Part shown: one piece after another, positions 7,225-14,305 of the stretch | Numbering within the stretch: position 1 is the stretch's first letter | Layout: each line of letters starts with the position of its first letter | Source: Pirellulales bacterium | GTDB lineage: Bacteria > Planctomycetota > Planctomycetia > Pirellulales > S012-138 | Assembly: GCA_028066245.1 (NCBI GenBank) | Contig: JALCBR010000010.1 | Location: forward strand, 1 to 64,000 | Direction of reading: 5' to 3' | DNA length: 64,000 bases | Position numbers and translations under genes: made by a program | Notes under the pieces: model-generated | The model's input: only the letters and a program-made list of their open reading frames with translations | The model's database searches: none | What the model was told of the DNA's origin: nothing

Positions 7225-7578
7225 TGAGAGACCTCAGGGAAGCAGAGGACTAAGTGGGAGGGCGGTCAGCGCTTCCCCCACTTATTGCAGGGACCGCTGT
7301 TGGAGCACCATGCAATCTCCCTAAGCATATTGCCTGTAAGTAGTAAGTGTCAAATTCTGCCAGCTGAACTATCTCAAGAACAGCCATGCGACCCCCAATT
7401 CAACGGTTTGTTTGAATAATGCCTGCTGAGAAATGTTCGATGCCTTCGGTGTCCTAACTCATTTGAGTAAGTCGAGTTTCGCTGGCTGTCGCTCTCGCCG
7501 ATCTTCGCCTATCATCAACACTGGGACTAAGTGTTCAATTTTGCGCATGCGATTGTTGGCACTCGAAAAGGACTGAGC
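7225..7578. other. Divergent intergenic region with a hairpin
   Basis: A 354-base region between the divergent DUF1501 gene and the sigma54 activator gene; no gene is seen. It holds an 8-base inverted repeat, TAAGTGGG (7251-7258) and CCCACTTA (7277-7284), with an 18-base loop. This would lie in the leader of the DUF1501 transcript 27-60 bases before its start. No convincing -35/-10 pair was found. Confidence 0.4.
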
Positions 7579-9606
7579 ATGCTGGCATATTTGGTTATCC
7601 GTGAGGGTTCGAAGTGGACGGACGTGTTTCGCTTGATTCCAGGCGAAACCGTACGCTTGGGCCGCGCGCCGACCAACCAAATTGTGCTCAAAGACGACCG
7701 CTGCAGCCGTTTTCATGCGGAGGTGTCCTGCACAGAGGGCGATTGGGTTATCCGCGATCTCCAAAGCCGCAACGGAACGGCTGTTGGCGGTGACCTGCTG
7801 GAAGGGGACCGTTCGCTGCAACCGGGCGAAATCATTCGCATCGGTCGTTCACAACTCGCGTTCGTGCACGATTTATCCAAGGCGTTTGGCGACGGACGTC
7901 CAGTTCCTGAACTCTCTCCGGAAGAGTTGGCCACGCTCAACGAGCAGACGTCCGCCTCAGTGGATGGAATGTCAAAAGACATCCTGTCCCCGCCGGAACC
8001 GACAACAATCACCCACCGGCGCGGGCACACACGATACTTGGAGCCGATTGAACCAGACGATTCGCAAATGCCAGGCGCCAGCCAGGCTTTAACCAAGCTT
8101 TGTCGTCTCGGATTCGAGTTGGGGAAAAGTCCCAACGTGGAAGCGATGTGCCAACTGGCGCTGACTGGCGTGTTTGAGGTTTCGCAAGCGAATGCTGGTG
8201 CGGTCTACGTGTTCCCCAGAGACTACGTGGGCGAGCCTGAAGCAGAGTTCTTGGAAATCGTCGCTTCGCGAGGTGACGAAGGGACTCGCTATCAGCCGAT
8301 TTCTCCCTTCCTTGCCAATACTGTTCTCAGAGAAGGTGAGGCCTTGCTCGCACGCAATATCATGGGCGACAGCACGATCGCCAGCCGCGACAGCAAGGGT
8401 GAGATCCATGCCACGAGTGTGGTCTGCGCGCCCATTCGCCGTAACGGAAATGTCTACGGTTTGATTCATTTGTTCTCGACGGATGAGCAACAAGCCCTGG
8501 ATCCGGAAGACCTGGACTTCACCTTGGCAGTCGCGGATTCTGTTGCCGTTGCGCTGGAGAATGTCAACCGGCGTCAGGAACTGGCAGAGAATCTTGACCA
8601 AGTGCTGGGGGAAAACGAGCAGCTTCGCGAACGGTTGGGAGTAGAAAGCGAAATCGTCGGGGGCAGTCCCGTGATCGCTAAGATTACTGAGCAGATTGCG
8701 CGCGCTGCGCCCAGCAAAGCCACCGTGCTGATTCGCGGCGAGAGCGGAGTCGGCAAAGAACTGGTCGCACGCGCGGTGCACTTCTCCAGTCCCCGTCGTA
8801 AGAAAAGCTTTGTTTGCATTAACTGTGCAGCGCTTTCAGAAAGCCTGCTGGAGAGTGAGCTCTTTGGGCATGAGCGCGGAGCATTTACCGGCGCGACGGA
8901 CCGCAAGATTGGCAAGTTTGAAGCGTCCGATGGCGGCACGATCATGCTCGATGAAATCGGCGAGATGAGCCCGCAAACGCAGGCCAAATTCCTGCGAGTC
9001 TTGGAAGGGCATCCGTTTGAACGCGTCGGCGGTAGCGAACCTGTGCATGTTGACGTCCGCGTGATCGCCGCGACCAACCGTGATCTGGAAAAGGAAGTTG
9101 AGAAAGGCAACTTCCGTCGCGATCTCTACTTCCGTCTGCGGGTTGTTGAGATCATCGTTCCTGGTTTGCGCAAGCGGCCGCAAGATGTCCCTGTCCTGGC
9201 GCAGTACTTCTTGGAAAAGTACTCCGCCGAAACAGGACGGCGAATTCGCGGGTTTTCCGCTGACGCGCTACAAGAAATGCAATCCTATCGATGGCCGGGA
9301 AATGTCCGTGAGCTCAAGAACGTGATCGAACGCGCCGTTGTGCTCTGCAATGCAGACGTGATCGATGTTGATGACCTGATGCTTTCTAAGCTCGCTACTG
9401 CAGGCGAAACTACGGAAATGCCAGCAGGGCCGAATACCTATCAGCCGTTGTCTCTGGCGGATCTTGAAAAGAAACACATCGCCGCCACATTAATTGCGAC
9501 TGGCTGGAACAAGAGCCAGGCCGCCGGCATTCTTGGAATCGAACGGTCGACGCTGGACCGTAAGATTCGCCGTTACGAGATCCGGCGCGATTCACAGATC
9601 GCGTGA
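7579..9606 (+). CDS. FHA-GAF sigma54-dependent transcriptional activator
   Basis: A 675-residue enhancer-binding protein. Domains in order: FHA (about 1-95, with LGRAPTNQIVLKDDRCSRFHAE and SRNGT phosphothreonine-pocket residues), a linker, GAF (about 155-320), AAA+ (about 365-600) and a Fis-type HTH (630-670, WNKSQAAGILGIERSTLDRK). The AAA+ core has Walker A GESGVGKE at 387-394, GAFTGA at 434-439 for sigma54 contact, Walker B IMLDEIGEM, and the sensor motif VIAATNRDL. The start at 7579 is favoured by AAAGGA 6 bases upstream; an ATG 48 bases earlier lacks one. An FHA domain in place of a receiver implies control by Ser/Thr phosphorylation. Targets are unknown; a sigma54-like promoter precedes glnB at 56.2 kb. 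Confidence 0.93.
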   Translation: MLAYLVIREGSKWTDVFRLIPGETVRLGRAPTNQIVLKDDRCSRFHAEVSCTEGDWVIRDLQSRNGTAVGGDLLEGDRSLQPGEIIRIGRSQLAFVHDLSKAFGDGRPVPELSPEELATLNEQTSASVDGMSKDILSPPEPTTITHRRGHTRYLEPIEPDDSQMPGASQALTKLCRLGFELGKSPNVEAMCQLALTGVFEVSQANAGAVYVFPRDYVGEPEAEFLEIVASRGDEGTRYQPISPFLANTVLREGEALLARNIMGDSTIASRDSKGEIHATSVVCAPIRRNGNVYGLIHLFSTDEQQALDPEDLDFTLAVADSVAVALENVNRRQELAENLDQVLGENEQLRERLGVESEIVGGSPVIAKITEQIARAAPSKATVLIRGESGVGKELVARAVHFSSPRRKKSFVCINCAALSESLLESELFGHERGAFTGATDRKIGKFEASDGGTIMLDEIGEMSPQTQAKFLRVLEGHPFERVGGSEPVHVDVRVIAATNRDLEKEVEKGNFRRDLYFRLRVVEIIVPGLRKRPQDVPVLAQYFLEKYSAETGRRIRGFSADALQEMQSYRWPGNVRELKNVIERAVVLCNADVIDVDDLMLSKLATAGETTEMPAGPNTYQPLSLADLEKKHIAATLIATGWNKSQAAGILGIERSTLDRKIRRYEIRRDSQIA

Positions 9607-9677: not shown

Positions 9678-11273
9678 TTACGCGCTGTTTGCTTCTGCTG
9701 CTACTAGGACATTCTCGCTTGCGGGGCGCGAGGGTAGCTTGATCACAAATGTCGTTCCGCGGCCTGCTGCCGTTTCAAATGTGATAGAGCCACCGTGGCG
9801 CTCAGTCACGATCTGATAAGCGATTGCCAGTCCCTGGCCGCTGCCGCGACCGACTTCTTTGGTCGTAAAGAAGGGTTCGAAAATTCGGCTTTGGACATCT
9901 TCAGGAATACCACAACCAGTGTCGGTGACGCTAATCTCAATTTCCTCGTTTGCGAAACCTGTTTGCACAAAGATCGCCCCGCGCTCCGGATTGGCATCGG
10001 AAATCGCATGAGCCGCGTTTACAAACAGATTTAAGAACACTTGGTTCAATTCACTCAAGTATCCTTCAAAATCGGGGATCTCTCCAAGTTCAAGCCTAAC
10101 GTCGGCAACATACTTGATTTCATTGCGGGCCACCGTCAGAGTGTTCGTAATCGCCTCATTGATGTTCAGCGTCGTTTTTTGATCGGCGCTGCCTCCATGT
10201 GAGAAGTTCTTCATGGCGGAGACGATGCTGCGTATTCGGTCTACACCCTCCAGAGTTTGCTCGAAGGCTTGTGGCGCATCTTCAAAGATGTAATCGAGAT
10301 CTACTTCTGCCTCAAGTGACGTCAATTGTTCATCATCGGGAATTGTTGTGCCTACACTGCGTAGATTCGCCAACGACGATTGATAGGCGCCAATCATTCG
10401 CTCGAGGTCGCCAAACATATCCCGGCACGCCCGGACGTTGTCGCCGACGAACTGAGTTGGCGTGTTAATCTCATGAGCAATGCCAGCGGCGAGTCCTCCA
10501 ACCGCGGCAAGTTTTTCAGAATGCAAGAGTTGCATTTGAGCGCTTTCCAGTTCCTTTGCTCTTGCGGCCGCTTTTGTTTCAATGCGCTCGTTCGTTTCTT
10601 CGAGTTGCGCAGTGTGAAATGATGCCTGCTTCATTTCTTTCACACTATTGAGGATTGAGTGGATTAAGACAATGTCTTCAAAGATGACCCACGCCGCGTG
10701 TTCCAACGTGCGCCAGGGAGTCGCCGTTAGGACTCCATAGACTGATTCTGGCCAAAACATCCCTCGAATCAAATGGTCGACGGCGATGACGGCGGTGGCC
10801 GTCATCAGCACGCGCCAATCGCGATAAACGGCGAGAAAGGCCAAAGACCCAAACACATGAAAGTGAGTTTCGATTCGCCCTCCGGTTAGGTGAATCAATA
10901 GTGCGGATGTGAGCATCTGCGCCACAGCGATCATGTGCCGCGTGAGCACCGATCCTGGATAGCGCAAAGCCAGGAAGATGGGCATGGCACTCAGGGCTCC
11001 ACCCAGCGCAATCGCAGCGATCAAATGAACATGGATCTCACTTGTCCCGCCAGTCCAAGTACGTGGCGAAATCCAAATAGCGGCGAGGACACCCATCACC
11101 CATTGGCACGCCATGAGCAACGCGAACATTCGATCGGTTCGCGCACTTCTCCGCTGACGCTGCGCCCGAAAGATCTCGTCCGCACGCGCCATGAGCAACT
11201 CCGAAGCGTGCAGGTTGTTATCCATGCTTGTTTGGGAGGTGATTGACTTACTTGTCGCATTGAGCTGATTCAT
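9678..11273 (-). CDS. Membrane sensor histidine kinase
   Basis: The 531-residue kinase is the last gene of a four-gene operon. The N-terminal half (about residues 45-215) has six hydrophobic segments including the THFHVFGSLAFLAVYRDWR block, with His at 137 and 139; similar blocks occur in membrane sensor modules of other signalling proteins. A coiled coil (ETNERIETKAAARAKELESA) leads to the H box GLAAGIAHEINTPTQFVGDN, with phospho-accepting His at 267. The catalytic domain shows N box NLFVNAAHAI, G1 DTGCGI and G2 GRGSGQGLAIAY. The start at 11273 has GAGG upstream and overlaps the preceding gene by 26 bases. Its natural partners are the two receiver-domain proteins encoded upstream. Confidence 0.92.
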   Translation of the reverse strand: MNQLNATSKSITSQTSMDNNLHASELLMARADEIFRAQRQRRSARTDRMFALLMACQWVMGVLAAIWISPRTWTGGTSEIHVHLIAAIALGGALSAMPIFLALRYPGSVLTRHMIAVAQMLTSALLIHLTGGRIETHFHVFGSLAFLAVYRDWRVLMTATAVIAVDHLIRGMFWPESVYGVLTATPWRTLEHAAWVIFEDIVLIHSILNSVKEMKQASFHTAQLEETNERIETKAAARAKELESAQMQLLHSEKLAAVGGLAAGIAHEINTPTQFVGDNVRACRDMFGDLERMIGAYQSSLANLRSVGTTIPDDEQLTSLEAEVDLDYIFEDAPQAFEQTLEGVDRIRSIVSAMKNFSHGGSADQKTTLNINEAITNTLTVARNEIKYVADVRLELGEIPDFEGYLSELNQVFLNLFVNAAHAISDANPERGAIFVQTGFANEEIEISVTDTGCGIPEDVQSRIFEPFFTTKEVGRGSGQGLAIAYQIVTERHGGSITFETAAGRGTTFVIKLPSRPASENVLVAAEANSA

Positions 11274-11886
11274 GGCACACCTCGTCTGGGCCGAAAAGTG
11301 GGCAACCAAACACTGCGGACATCATGGTCTCGCCGTGGCATTTCCCCGAGATTACCTCCGCAAGCGCATCACCGCCGATCGACGAACCTTCATGGTTGCG
11401 CGCAGGAGTAATACCGCCGCAAAACCGCAGGTGCCCGGATTGATCGTAGGCGACGATGTATCCGGACGTCCTGGCGCCAAATCGCTCCGTTTCTGTGCCG
11501 TCCATGTCAAAATAGATCTTTGCGTTAGGCAGCGCACGAGCTTTTTGCCATAAGCTTGATCTTGCCCAAACGACATTGCGCCCCGGCGGAATTCGAAAAA
11601 CAAAGTACAGTCCCACATCGTCTGCAACTGTGTGTGCCAAAATCCGGTTAAGAGTTTCGAGCGTTGAATGCGTACACGGGCACTGTGGGTGAACAAACAT
11701 TACGATCGAGATCTCGTTGGGGCCTCTTTCAAGCGTTGTTTCGGTGGGCCACTGTTCGACAGCATCTCCACGTGTTCCGGGTGTGCCGGAGTAGTCCATG
11801 AGGTAGAAGGTCCCGGCAAGAATCGCGATCCCCCAAACAAGGAGCAATACTGCCAGTCCGGTGTGTCCTCTCTTTGAATGCGTCAT
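11248..11886 (-). CDS. Membrane-anchored thioredoxin-fold protein, RedB-like
   Basis: The 212-residue protein has one N-terminal membrane segment (residues 10-30, GLAVLLLVWGIAILAGTFYL) and an outside-facing thioredoxin-like domain. The putative redox site is the CPC of VMFVHPQCPCTHSTLETLNR, on the expected helix after the first strand. SGYIVAYDQSGHLRFCGGIT resembles the cis-Pro/strand region, but with no obvious cis-Pro. The C-terminus holds four more Cys. It resembles proteins often labelled RedB; that label is not firm. Its ATG overlaps the stop of the upstream response-regulator gene by four bases, and its end overlaps the kinase start, so it is translated as part of a signalling operon. 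A redox-sensing or accessory role for the kinase is inference. Confidence 0.75.
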   Translation of the reverse strand: MTHSKRGHTGLAVLLLVWGIAILAGTFYLMDYSGTPGTRGDAVEQWPTETTLERGPNEISIVMFVHPQCPCTHSTLETLNRILAHTVADDVGLYFVFRIPPGRNVVWARSSLWQKARALPNAKIYFDMDGTETERFGARTSGYIVAYDQSGHLRFCGGITPARNHEGSSIGGDALAEVISGKCHGETMMSAVFGCPLFGPDEVCHESAQCDK

Positions 11887-13088
11887 GGTGTCGACACGGC
11901 CTCCGGTTCTGTAGGTGACTCCACATCTTTTGGTTGTTCGGCCGAGTCAACTGCTGGGATCCTAACCCGAATCGGCTCGCGGACCCCTTCGGTGCTGATT
12001 GCGAATCTTTTAAGGCGCGCGCACAGCGGCGGGTTAATGACATGGCCAGAGGCGACCAACACGTTTCCGTCCCGGGAGCAAACATGCTCTTCCAGAATCA
12101 TCCCTTCTTCGAGCTCTGAAAGCGTCACGTCTTCAACACGTTCGCCCATGTTTGCCAGCTTGACGAGAGCGGCGAGGACGCGTTTGTCATAGGCAGCGGC
12201 ATCTTTCTTCATTTGAACGACGGCTTGCTGATCCGTCATGCCGGAGTTGCGGAGCTGATCGAAATCAAGTGTCGCCCGAAGAATGAGTGCCGAGAGCGGC
12301 GGTTTCCGTTCGCCGTCTCCTCTTGAATCGTCGCAACGTGAAAGCTGGAATTGCACTGTATCAGCGACCAACTCCAAACGTGGAATCCTGCGAATCAAAC
12401 CAGCACCAATCTTGGGGTGTTCGCGGAACTTTGCCGACTCCTCGCCAGATAGTTTTGCGCCCGATCTCACCTTCTCCAAGACGTCGTTCGACAAAGCGAT
12501 GCATCCAATCTGCGATAACATTGCTCCCATTTCGATTTCCCATGTGCGCTCGAGTGAAAGCTCGGCTGCAATGTCTCGCGCAATTCGGCGCAGGTTGGAA
12601 AGCCTTCCGAAAGCCTTGGGATTAACAAGCGAGAGCACATCTGTCATCAAGCTGACGCTTCCAGCGACCGTCTTGGTGAGCATTGCCGTTTCTTGGATCT
12701 GCAACTTGTACCGCAGAATCCCGCTTTCAATCGTCTCTGCAAGTCGCTCGGGCTCGCAGGGTTTGTTCAAAAAGCGATAAATCGCTCCGCGATTGACGGC
12801 ATCGGTTGCCGTCTTTTGATCCGCATTGCCGGTCAGCATGATGCGGACGGTGTCAGGGCAAGACGTTTTGACTTGTTCTAGGAATTCAACTCCATTCATC
12901 CCAGGCATCGTCATATCAGAAACGACGACTGCGAATGACTGAGCCTTATTCGTTTGTTGAATGCGTTGAAGCCCTTCTGCGCCGGAGAGGCCGCATTCTA
13001 CGTCAAACATCTTGCGCAGATGCCGCCGGTACCCTTGAAGGACGTTGGGCTCATCGTCAACGAGCAGAACTCGACGGTTCTCAGTCAT
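11883..13088 (-). CDS. Response regulator with degenerate HD-GYP output domain
   Basis: A 401-residue protein. Residues 1-125 form a receiver domain with acidic residues DDE at 11-13, phosphorylatable Asp58 in VVSDMTMPGMNG, Thr86 and Lys109. The output part aligns with the HD-GYP fold of RpfG-type cyclic-di-GMP phosphodiesterases, but the metal ligands are missing: the HD pair is replaced by Ser192-Gln193 in LSQIGCIALSNDVL, and the HHE..D..GYP segment reads QFQLSRCDDSRGDG. The HP of FREHPKIGAGLI is kept. It is therefore probably catalytically inactive and acts by binding. The gene overlaps both neighbours by four bases (ATGA). Confidence 0.88.
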   Translation of the reverse strand: MTENRRVLLVDDEPNVLQGYRRHLRKMFDVECGLSGAEGLQRIQQTNKAQSFAVVVSDMTMPGMNGVEFLEQVKTSCPDTVRIMLTGNADQKTATDAVNRGAIYRFLNKPCEPERLAETIESGILRYKLQIQETAMLTKTVAGSVSLMTDVLSLVNPKAFGRLSNLRRIARDIAAELSLERTWEIEMGAMLSQIGCIALSNDVLEKVRSGAKLSGEESAKFREHPKIGAGLIRRIPRLELVADTVQFQLSRCDDSRGDGERKPPLSALILRATLDFDQLRNSGMTDQQAVVQMKKDAAAYDKRVLAALVKLANMGERVEDVTLSELEEGMILEEHVCSRDGNVLVASGHVINPPLCARLKRFAISTEGVREPIRVRIPAVDSAEQPKDVESPTEPEAVSTP

Positions 13089-14305
13089 GACCGAAGCGCC
13101 TTTTTCTCACATGAACAGATGGACTCTGCCGCTGTTCGCCATCCCTCCAACTGATCCGTAACGCCGAGTCTGGCAAGATATTCCGCGTCGATCTCCTGCA
13201 CTCGCCACAAGCTGTCGTCGGTTATGCAATTCACGATGTAATTCGCAGCGTGGACAGCCATCAGTACGTCAAAACTCTCCACGCAACTGTGCCCAGGTTC
13301 GTGGTGGAATGCAACTGCCTCTACGATTTGTGACGGCAGCCCCCAAATTTCGAGCAGATGTGCGCCAACATCCGCGTGCGTTACACCAAAAACCGCGCGT
13401 TCCGCTTCAACGATCGACACTCCCGATGACGCTGCTATCGAGAAGACCTCGCGGTATTGGTCAGGCAGATTCGCCGCCAGAACAAGCATCCCAACGTCGT
13501 GGAGCAGTCCAGCTTGCATCGCGAAGTCGAGCAACGAGGCAGAGCCCCCCATGAGCCCTGCGATTTTCCTGGCCAAGTTACACGTCAGCAAACTATGTTC
13601 AGTCAGTTCCTCAAGTGAAAACTCGGGGAGGCGTGCCGTCTCGAATTCAGTAAAGATCCCTGCTGAGAGAACAATCGGACCAATGTTATTGAGCCCCAAA
13701 AGAGTGGCCGCCTGGGCCGGACTATCAACCTGTCTGGGCAACCCAAAGAAGGAGGAATTCACGAGCTGCAACAGCTTCGCGGACATACCAACATCTTTGG
13801 AAATAAGCTGAGCGACGCGCTGAATGCTGGGATCCGCAGAGCGCAGCTCTTCGACAAGCTCGTTGTAAATGTTAGGTAGACTCGGCAGAGACACCACACG
13901 CGAGACGAGCGCTTCCAGTTCTTTCGATGCCAGACGCGTCTGCAAAGACCCTGCCCTGCGAATCGTGCTGTAGAGCGTATCGGCGTCGCATGGTTTAGAA
14001 AGAAACTGATGTGCTAGCCCGACTGAGCGTAGCAAGGACTCTCGCTCCGAGTGACCGGACAAGACGATTCGTACTGTTGCCAAGTGTCGCGCTTCGACCT
14101 CCTTGAGTAATTGCGCTCCATCCATACCCGGCATCTGCATATCGGAGACGATGACATCAACCGGCTGTTCCTCAAGCAATTGAAGCGCTTCTTTGCCGCT
14201 TTCGGCGAATAGCGTTTCCCATTCGTCGCGATAGCGTCTCAACATTCGGCGCAAGCCAGCGAGAATGCTGGCCTCATCGTCGACGAAAAGCACGCGTTTC
14301 TTCAT
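13085..14305 (-). CDS. Response regulator with HDOD output domain
   Basis: The 406-residue protein is the first gene of the operon. The receiver domain (1-120) has DDE at 9-11, Asp55 in VIVSDMQMPGMDG and Lys107. Residues about 140-340 form an HDOD domain, starting LPSLPNIYNELVEELRSADP, with KLLQLVNSSFFGLP and a retained LLHDVGMLVLA. HDOD domains are a non-catalytic HD relative used in signalling. A short C-terminal helical tail ends CSCEKK. AAGGGG precedes the ATG by 9-10 bases. With the second regulator, the thioredoxin-like protein and the kinase it makes a self-contained two-component system. Confidence 0.9.
   Translation of the reverse strand: MKKRVLFVDDEASILAGLRRMLRRYRDEWETLFAESGKEALQLLEEQPVDVIVSDMQMPGMDGAQLLKEVEARHLATVRIVLSGHSERESLLRSVGLAHQFLSKPCDADTLYSTIRRAGSLQTRLASKELEALVSRVVSLPSLPNIYNELVEELRSADPSIQRVAQLISKDVGMSAKLLQLVNSSFFGLPRQVDSPAQAATLLGLNNIGPIVLSAGIFTEFETARLPEFSLEELTEHSLLTCNLARKIAGLMGGSASLLDFAMQAGLLHDVGMLVLAANLPDQYREVFSIAASSGVSIVEAERAVFGVTHADVGAHLLEIWGLPSQIVEAVAFHHEPGHSCVESFDVLMAVHAANYIVNCITDDSLWRVQEIDAEYLARLGVTDQLEGWRTAAESICSCEKKALRS

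Follow-up and report, generated by a model that had tools for sequence, protein, structure and literature searches.

An oxygen receptor of a halophilic archaeon and a branched kinase network of a bacterium are among the closest described parallels to the locus considered here. The HtrVIII oxygen receptor is the one transducer with six transmembrane (TM) segments listed for Halobacterium, and its TM region has been likened to the heme-binding sites of cytochrome c oxidase (PMC3579733, PMC13401364). In the Hno network of Shewanella oneidensis, HnoD is a response regulator that joins a receiver (REC) to a degenerate HD-GYP domain and has no phosphodiesterase activity (PMC6335343). We analysed a minus-strand operon at positions 9678 to 14,305 of a 64,000 nt stretch of a Pirellulales bacterium genome (Planctomycetota; assembly GCA_028066245.1, contig JALCBR010000010.1; the whole stretch is called the window below). 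Its four genes encode a REC-HDOD response regulator, a REC-degenerate HD-GYP response regulator, a membrane-anchored thioredoxin-like protein and a membrane histidine kinase. We conclude that the thioredoxin-like gene is a genuine functional component of this system and forms one sensory module with the N-terminal membrane domain of the kinase, of which we call it the partner.

Taken by description only, HtrVIII, the aerotaxis transducer of Halobacterium salinarum, resembles the window kinase in having a six-TM sensory region before the signalling output, and the window domain has both the six TM helices and the conserved histidines (His) of HtrVIII-like transducers. The outputs differ, being that of a methyl-accepting chemotaxis protein (MCP) in HtrVIII and a histidine kinase in the window, although some relatives of the window sensor are MCPs. 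None of the haloarchaeal loci examined for the domain has a thioredoxin-like neighbour. The Hno network (HnoK/HnoS, HnoB, HnoC, HnoD) is like the window operon in that its kinase output branches and one branch leads to a REC-degenerate HD-GYP protein, but its input is H-NOX and nitric oxide (NO) through a soluble kinase, whereas the window operon has a membrane domain and a thioredoxin-like partner, and encodes a REC-HDOD protein where the Hno network has HnoB/HnoC. A further parallel is presumably the red operon of Myxococcus xanthus, with its RedC membrane kinase, since thioredoxin-like proteins of this sort probably go by the name RedB; most of the literature retrieved under that name is about a CRP/FNR regulator.

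The pairing of partner and sensor was followed from both sides. A single-sequence search found a homologue of the thioredoxin-like protein in 36 of 98 related genomes, and the partner gene is the immediate 5′ neighbour of a gene that has, at its N-terminus, the same membrane domain as the window kinase, the two genes usually overlapping. To avoid selection bias, 292 Planctomycetota genomes were then searched with a profile of the sensor (alignment A1), which returned 58 matches, 56 of which could be judged; in a tally made by hand, 50 of these 56 loci have a thioredoxin-like gene as the next gene upstream, in the same orientation. In the reverse direction, the sensor adjoins 42 of 45 strong thioredoxin-like matches (E < 1e-30) in the 98 relatives, the exceptions being a fusion to another kinase (L072), a contig end (G032) and an orphan (G056). 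A CxC thioredoxin-like protein still precedes sensors that have diverged strongly (L162-L166, profile E from 1e-15 to 1e-7), and the pair also occurs in one cyanobacterial genome, the metagenome-assembled genome (MAG) TGS_CYA1 (L003). Distance matrices between loci correlate with rho 0.52 for sensor and partner, 0.45 for sensor and kinase and 0.27 for partner and kinase, with a partial sensor-partner correlation of 0.46. On this census, the association of the two genes is far beyond chance. An earlier note on this DNA had regarded the thioredoxin-like gene as built into a four-gene system, an idea to be given up if most homologous loci lacked the gene. When the kinase is followed the opposite holds, as the 50 of 56 loci show; the gene goes with the sensor, and it is the four genes that are not the unit.

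Near its N-terminus the partner (212 amino acids, 11248..11886, −) has a single TM segment with basic residues ahead of it, which would place the thioredoxin-like part in the periplasm. Its invariant residues in a 38-row alignment (A2) are W18, H66-P67-x-C69-P70-C71 (with P70 kept in about 90% of the rows), D127, G158, T160, R163 and G194-C195. The HPxCPC motif is therefore a CxC and not a CxxC, and both of its cysteines (Cys) are invariant in 38/38 rows; the CPC codons lie at 11674..11682 (−) and that of the invariant C-terminal Cys195, within a GC motif, at 11302..11304 (−). No Pfam or NCBIfam family matched the window protein. The thioredoxin-like label of the earlier note is supported by profile matches to the PDB entries 2ywi, 2cvb and 3u5r and by an AlphaFold model with a mean predicted local distance difference test (pLDDT) score of 70, whose Foldseek matches are TlpA/ResA-type thioredoxins at E ~1e-3 or weaker. 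The fold is thus that of TlpA/ResA-type proteins, but their CxxC active site is replaced by CxC. AlphaFold models were built from two rows per alignment, the window and cyanobacterial (L003) sequences, and are moderate for that reason. At L072:7384-10437 (+), a thioredoxin-like domain forms the N-terminus of a PAS histidine kinase and a small receiver gene precedes it.

The sensor domain (10644..11141, −; alignment A1) covers residues 57-222 of the 543-amino-acid open reading frame (ORF) that opens at an upstream TTG (11309); the kinase likely starts at the ATG at 11273 (9678..11273, −). The model of the domain (pLDDT 78.5) has six long helices, the conserved His are H93, H95, H140, H149, H179 and H204, and no Cys is found among the conserved columns. 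If the kinase C-terminus is taken as cytoplasmic and the positive-inside rule is applied, the helix limits predict a periplasmic position for all of the His: H93/H95 where TM2 starts, H140 where TM3 ends, H149/H151 where TM4 starts, H179 in the outer half of TM5 and H204 where TM6 starts. Pfam, including its MASE-type families, has no family for the window domain and gave only scattered weak matches among 33 members.

The His follow the presence of the partner. H140, H149, H179 and H204 are found in all 76 sensors with an adjacent partner, 73 of which have all six His, compared with 8/14 (four His) and 5/14 (all six) in sensors without one (Fisher 4.8e-6 for the four-His comparison). R124, Q131, A157, Y162 and D164 are conserved without a comparable drop where the partner is absent. 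Sensors short of one to six His occur in four genomes (G360, G168, G062 and G016) that have no real partner gene, and four planctomycete sensors with six His and no adjacent partner belong to genomes that carry the partner elsewhere. A link between His loss and partner loss is suggested by these data, which fall short of proof.

The domain and its partners extend beyond Planctomycetota. On a Granulicella megaplasmid the domain (53% identity) forms part of a GGDEF-EAL protein with no adjacent partner, and a homologous domain is present on plasmid chemoreceptors of Pseudoalteromonas, Pseudomonas, Alteromonas and Marinobacter (hhalign 99.6%, 5.9e-24, Granulicella excluded); a plasmid search with the window thioredoxin-like protein as query gave no match. 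The chemoreceptor neighbour is DUF6436 (PF20029) in eight Pseudoalteromonas records, one P. aeruginosa plasmid and one Alteromonas plasmid. Like the window protein, DUF6436 has an N-terminal TM segment, a CxC and a C-terminal GC and adjoins a homologous His-rich membrane domain; it differs in its C-terminal GCxC, in an MCP as receptor and, in Pseudoalteromonas, in the downstream position of the partner gene. The two families compare at 93.4% (hhalign, E 2.5e-7) with the CxC and C-terminal GC aligned, and PF20029 was not found by Pfam in the window protein, while 8/38 relatives match it weakly (best E 0.0096). On a Marinobacter plasmid (L173:2213-4302), the gene for a chemoreceptor with the His-rich domain is immediately preceded by a SCO1/SenC gene (1.4e-15, CDDVCP). 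SCO1/SenC proteins (PF02630) resemble the window partner in being membrane-anchored, periplasmic proteins of thioredoxin fold with metal-capable Cys, and one holds the partner position there; the window protein gave no match to PF02630. A search of the openly accessible literature on DUF6436, RedB and SCO-chemoreceptor links did not find the partner-sensor pairing described.

Other settings were also observed. A conjugative P. aeruginosa plasmid (L105:2060-3759) has DUF6436 and such a chemoreceptor, the latter apparently cut short near recombinase/transposase genes. In Vibrio (L175:2812-4691), the chemoreceptor with the domain overlaps a 141-amino-acid protein that has several Cys, matches nothing in Pfam and is unrelated to the partner; a similar small protein follows in L174. 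Haloarchaeal plasmid chemoreceptors match the sensor profile (4e-15 for Halorussus). In Halobaculum (L190:1044-7618), a chemoreceptor with the domain stands between a gene for heme-copper oxidase subunit I and nirK, a setting that hints at sensing of NO, nitrite or O2.

We propose, with a probability of roughly one half, that the Sco-like partner loads, reduces or reads a His-ligated metal site that controls the kinase, with the REC-HDOD and REC-degenerate HD-GYP proteins receiving the phosphate. At the periplasmic face the six conserved His most likely serve as ligands to a metal, which would be of copper or heme-copper type or possibly heme, and the membrane-anchored CPC protein would deliver, reduce or read this site much as Sco1/TlpA do with cytochrome oxidase. 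The state of the site, be it loading, bound O2 or NO, or redox, would set kinase activity, and the kinase would pass phosphate to the two co-encoded regulators. The REC-degenerate HD-GYP protein cannot act as a phosphodiesterase and, by analogy with HnoD, probably works by protein contact. The data show directly how the genes pair and how widely, that outputs are swapped, how His and Cys are conserved and that His and partner tend to be lost together, whereas the metal, the ligand, the direction in which the partner acts and the phosphotransfer are the steps of this model that we infer; plausible inputs are O2, NO or redox.

Disulfide transfer from partner to kinase was considered and rejected because six His but no Cys are conserved in the sensor; of the thiol state or periplasmic disulfide that the earlier note had suggested as input, a disulfide handed to the kinase is thus unlikely. 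The main rival explanation avoids such a transfer: the CPC protein itself senses the thiol/disulfide or oxidant state of the periplasm and contacts the membrane domain non-covalently, and the His are structural. Three invariant Cys on a thioredoxin fold and the direct fusion of a thioredoxin-like domain to a kinase in L072 fit this scheme, and periplasmic redox control of cyclic di-GMP (c-di-GMP) proteins is established for HmsC/HmsD and PdeC (PMC8846402). With no conserved Cys in the sensor to exchange disulfides with, with His loss accompanying partner loss and with a SCO copper chaperone in the partner's place in Marinobacter, we nevertheless regard it as possible yet rather doubtful. The second rival, with heme in place of copper, is a heme-binding membrane sensor of O2 or NO whose thioredoxin-like protein aids heme attachment or reduction. 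It draws on the domain being common to haloarchaeal six-helix chemoreceptors, but the uncertain identity of these with HtrVIII, partners that are thioredoxin- or Sco-like and not heme-handling, and a sensor domain without a fold match make it unlikely. That the partner is a general oxidoreductase co-transcribed by chance, so that only the two-component system matters, is very improbable: its family scores weakly against generic thioredoxin-like proteins, which leaves room for the idea, but the conserved adjacency and the distance covariation across phyla, with outputs changing around the partner, speak against it.

Several observations weigh against the metal-site model itself. No solved structure matches the sensor in a PDB fold search (none at E < 0.001), and no cofactor was seen for the domain. 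The His-loss test is not corrected for phylogeny, involves related loci and rests on 14 of them, and E147 and E211 drop comparably to the His where the partner is absent. Some sensors with six His (L103, L153, L154, L159 and L160) lack an adjacent partner, so the partner is not obligatory in cis, and the L072 fusion joins the thioredoxin-like domain to a kinase with a different membrane region. The profile similarity of the partner to DUF6436 is only moderate (93%), and the window protein has CPC where Sco has CxxxCP.

The earlier description of the operon itself proved accurate in gene order and domains, with four minus-strand ORFs at the given position. The REC-HDOD protein, product of the first gene, has 406 amino acids (13085..14305, −; Pfam Response_reg 1.3e-22, HDOD 4.6e-55), and the REC-degenerate HD-GYP protein has 401 (11883..13088, −; Response_reg 8e-20, HD_5 5.9e-20), its gene showing an ATGA-type 4-base overlap at either side. 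The overlaps of 4, 4 and 26 bases reported before were recovered with the kinase ATG at 11273; the last becomes 62 with the alternative TTG start at 11309. By inspection, the phospho-Asp is kept in both receivers (D55 in REC-HDOD, D58 in REC-degenerate HD-GYP), and NosR is the top NCBIfam score for both. The second regulator was rightly called degenerate, since in the alignment its HD is changed to SQ and its HHE..GYP region is lost; it thus lacks the HD dyad and GYP motif of HD-GYP phosphodiesterases. The kinase has the features of a two-component histidine kinase, with the H-box (GIAHEINTP), N- and G-boxes intact on inspection and HATPase_c at 1e-24. A scan for minus-strand sigma-70-like promoters within the operon found none, a weak and uninformative result. 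Outside the operon, a convergent gene at 7531-9606 (+) encodes an FHA-GAF-sigma54 activator-helix-turn-helix regulator.

Outputs vary around the sensor. Behind the domain are found histidine kinases, hybrid histidine kinases, GGDEF-EAL proteins (L043, L128) and chemoreceptors (L065, L066, L068, L149), and separate REC-GGDEF, REC-HD-GYP, REC-EAL and REC-HDOD regulators lie near sensor loci. The full gene order of the operon, sought in relatives as the earlier note had advised, does occur in L142 with 4-base overlaps, but recurs only this once; gene sets related to the window operon are present in L126, L143, L146 and L172. At L126:5184-5681 (genome G296), a TAG stop interrupts the sensor region; the partner gene is there, as are both response regulators. 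The same genome as the window holds a paralogous cluster on contig C59 (L187:7059-10789) that encodes a soluble REC-kinase, a REC-HDOD and a REC-degenerate HD-GYP protein and has neither a membrane sensor nor a thioredoxin-like gene. As this paralogue keeps the output pair without the thioredoxin-like gene, the four genes were rejected as one conserved unit. Output swapping and the paralogue together mean that the operon joins an input cassette, partner plus sensor kinase, to a reusable output cassette, REC-HDOD plus REC-degenerate HD-GYP. The new part is the input module of partner and six-helix domain and not the four-gene set, whose boundary the first reading had misplaced.

Tentatively, we see in this module a portable, so far undescribed gas or redox sensor, composed of a six-helix domain with a periplasmic copper/heme-copper-like His site, its own Sco/thioredoxin-like partner and varied outputs. 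Its proposed spread covers Planctomycetota, a cyanobacterial MAG and Gammaproteobacteria, and Acidobacteriota and haloarchaea likewise carry the domain. Although it belongs to no Pfam family and lacks a solved structure, the sensor domain is found across several phyla and in archaea, joined to kinases, to c-di-GMP enzymes or to chemoreceptors, and identifying its thioredoxin-/Sco-like partner offers a tangible way to approach the signal that it detects. What looked like a four-gene system consists of an input cassette and an output cassette, both reusable, and recognising the partner would link HtrVIII, an oxygen receptor that has received little study, with a sensor widespread in bacteria.

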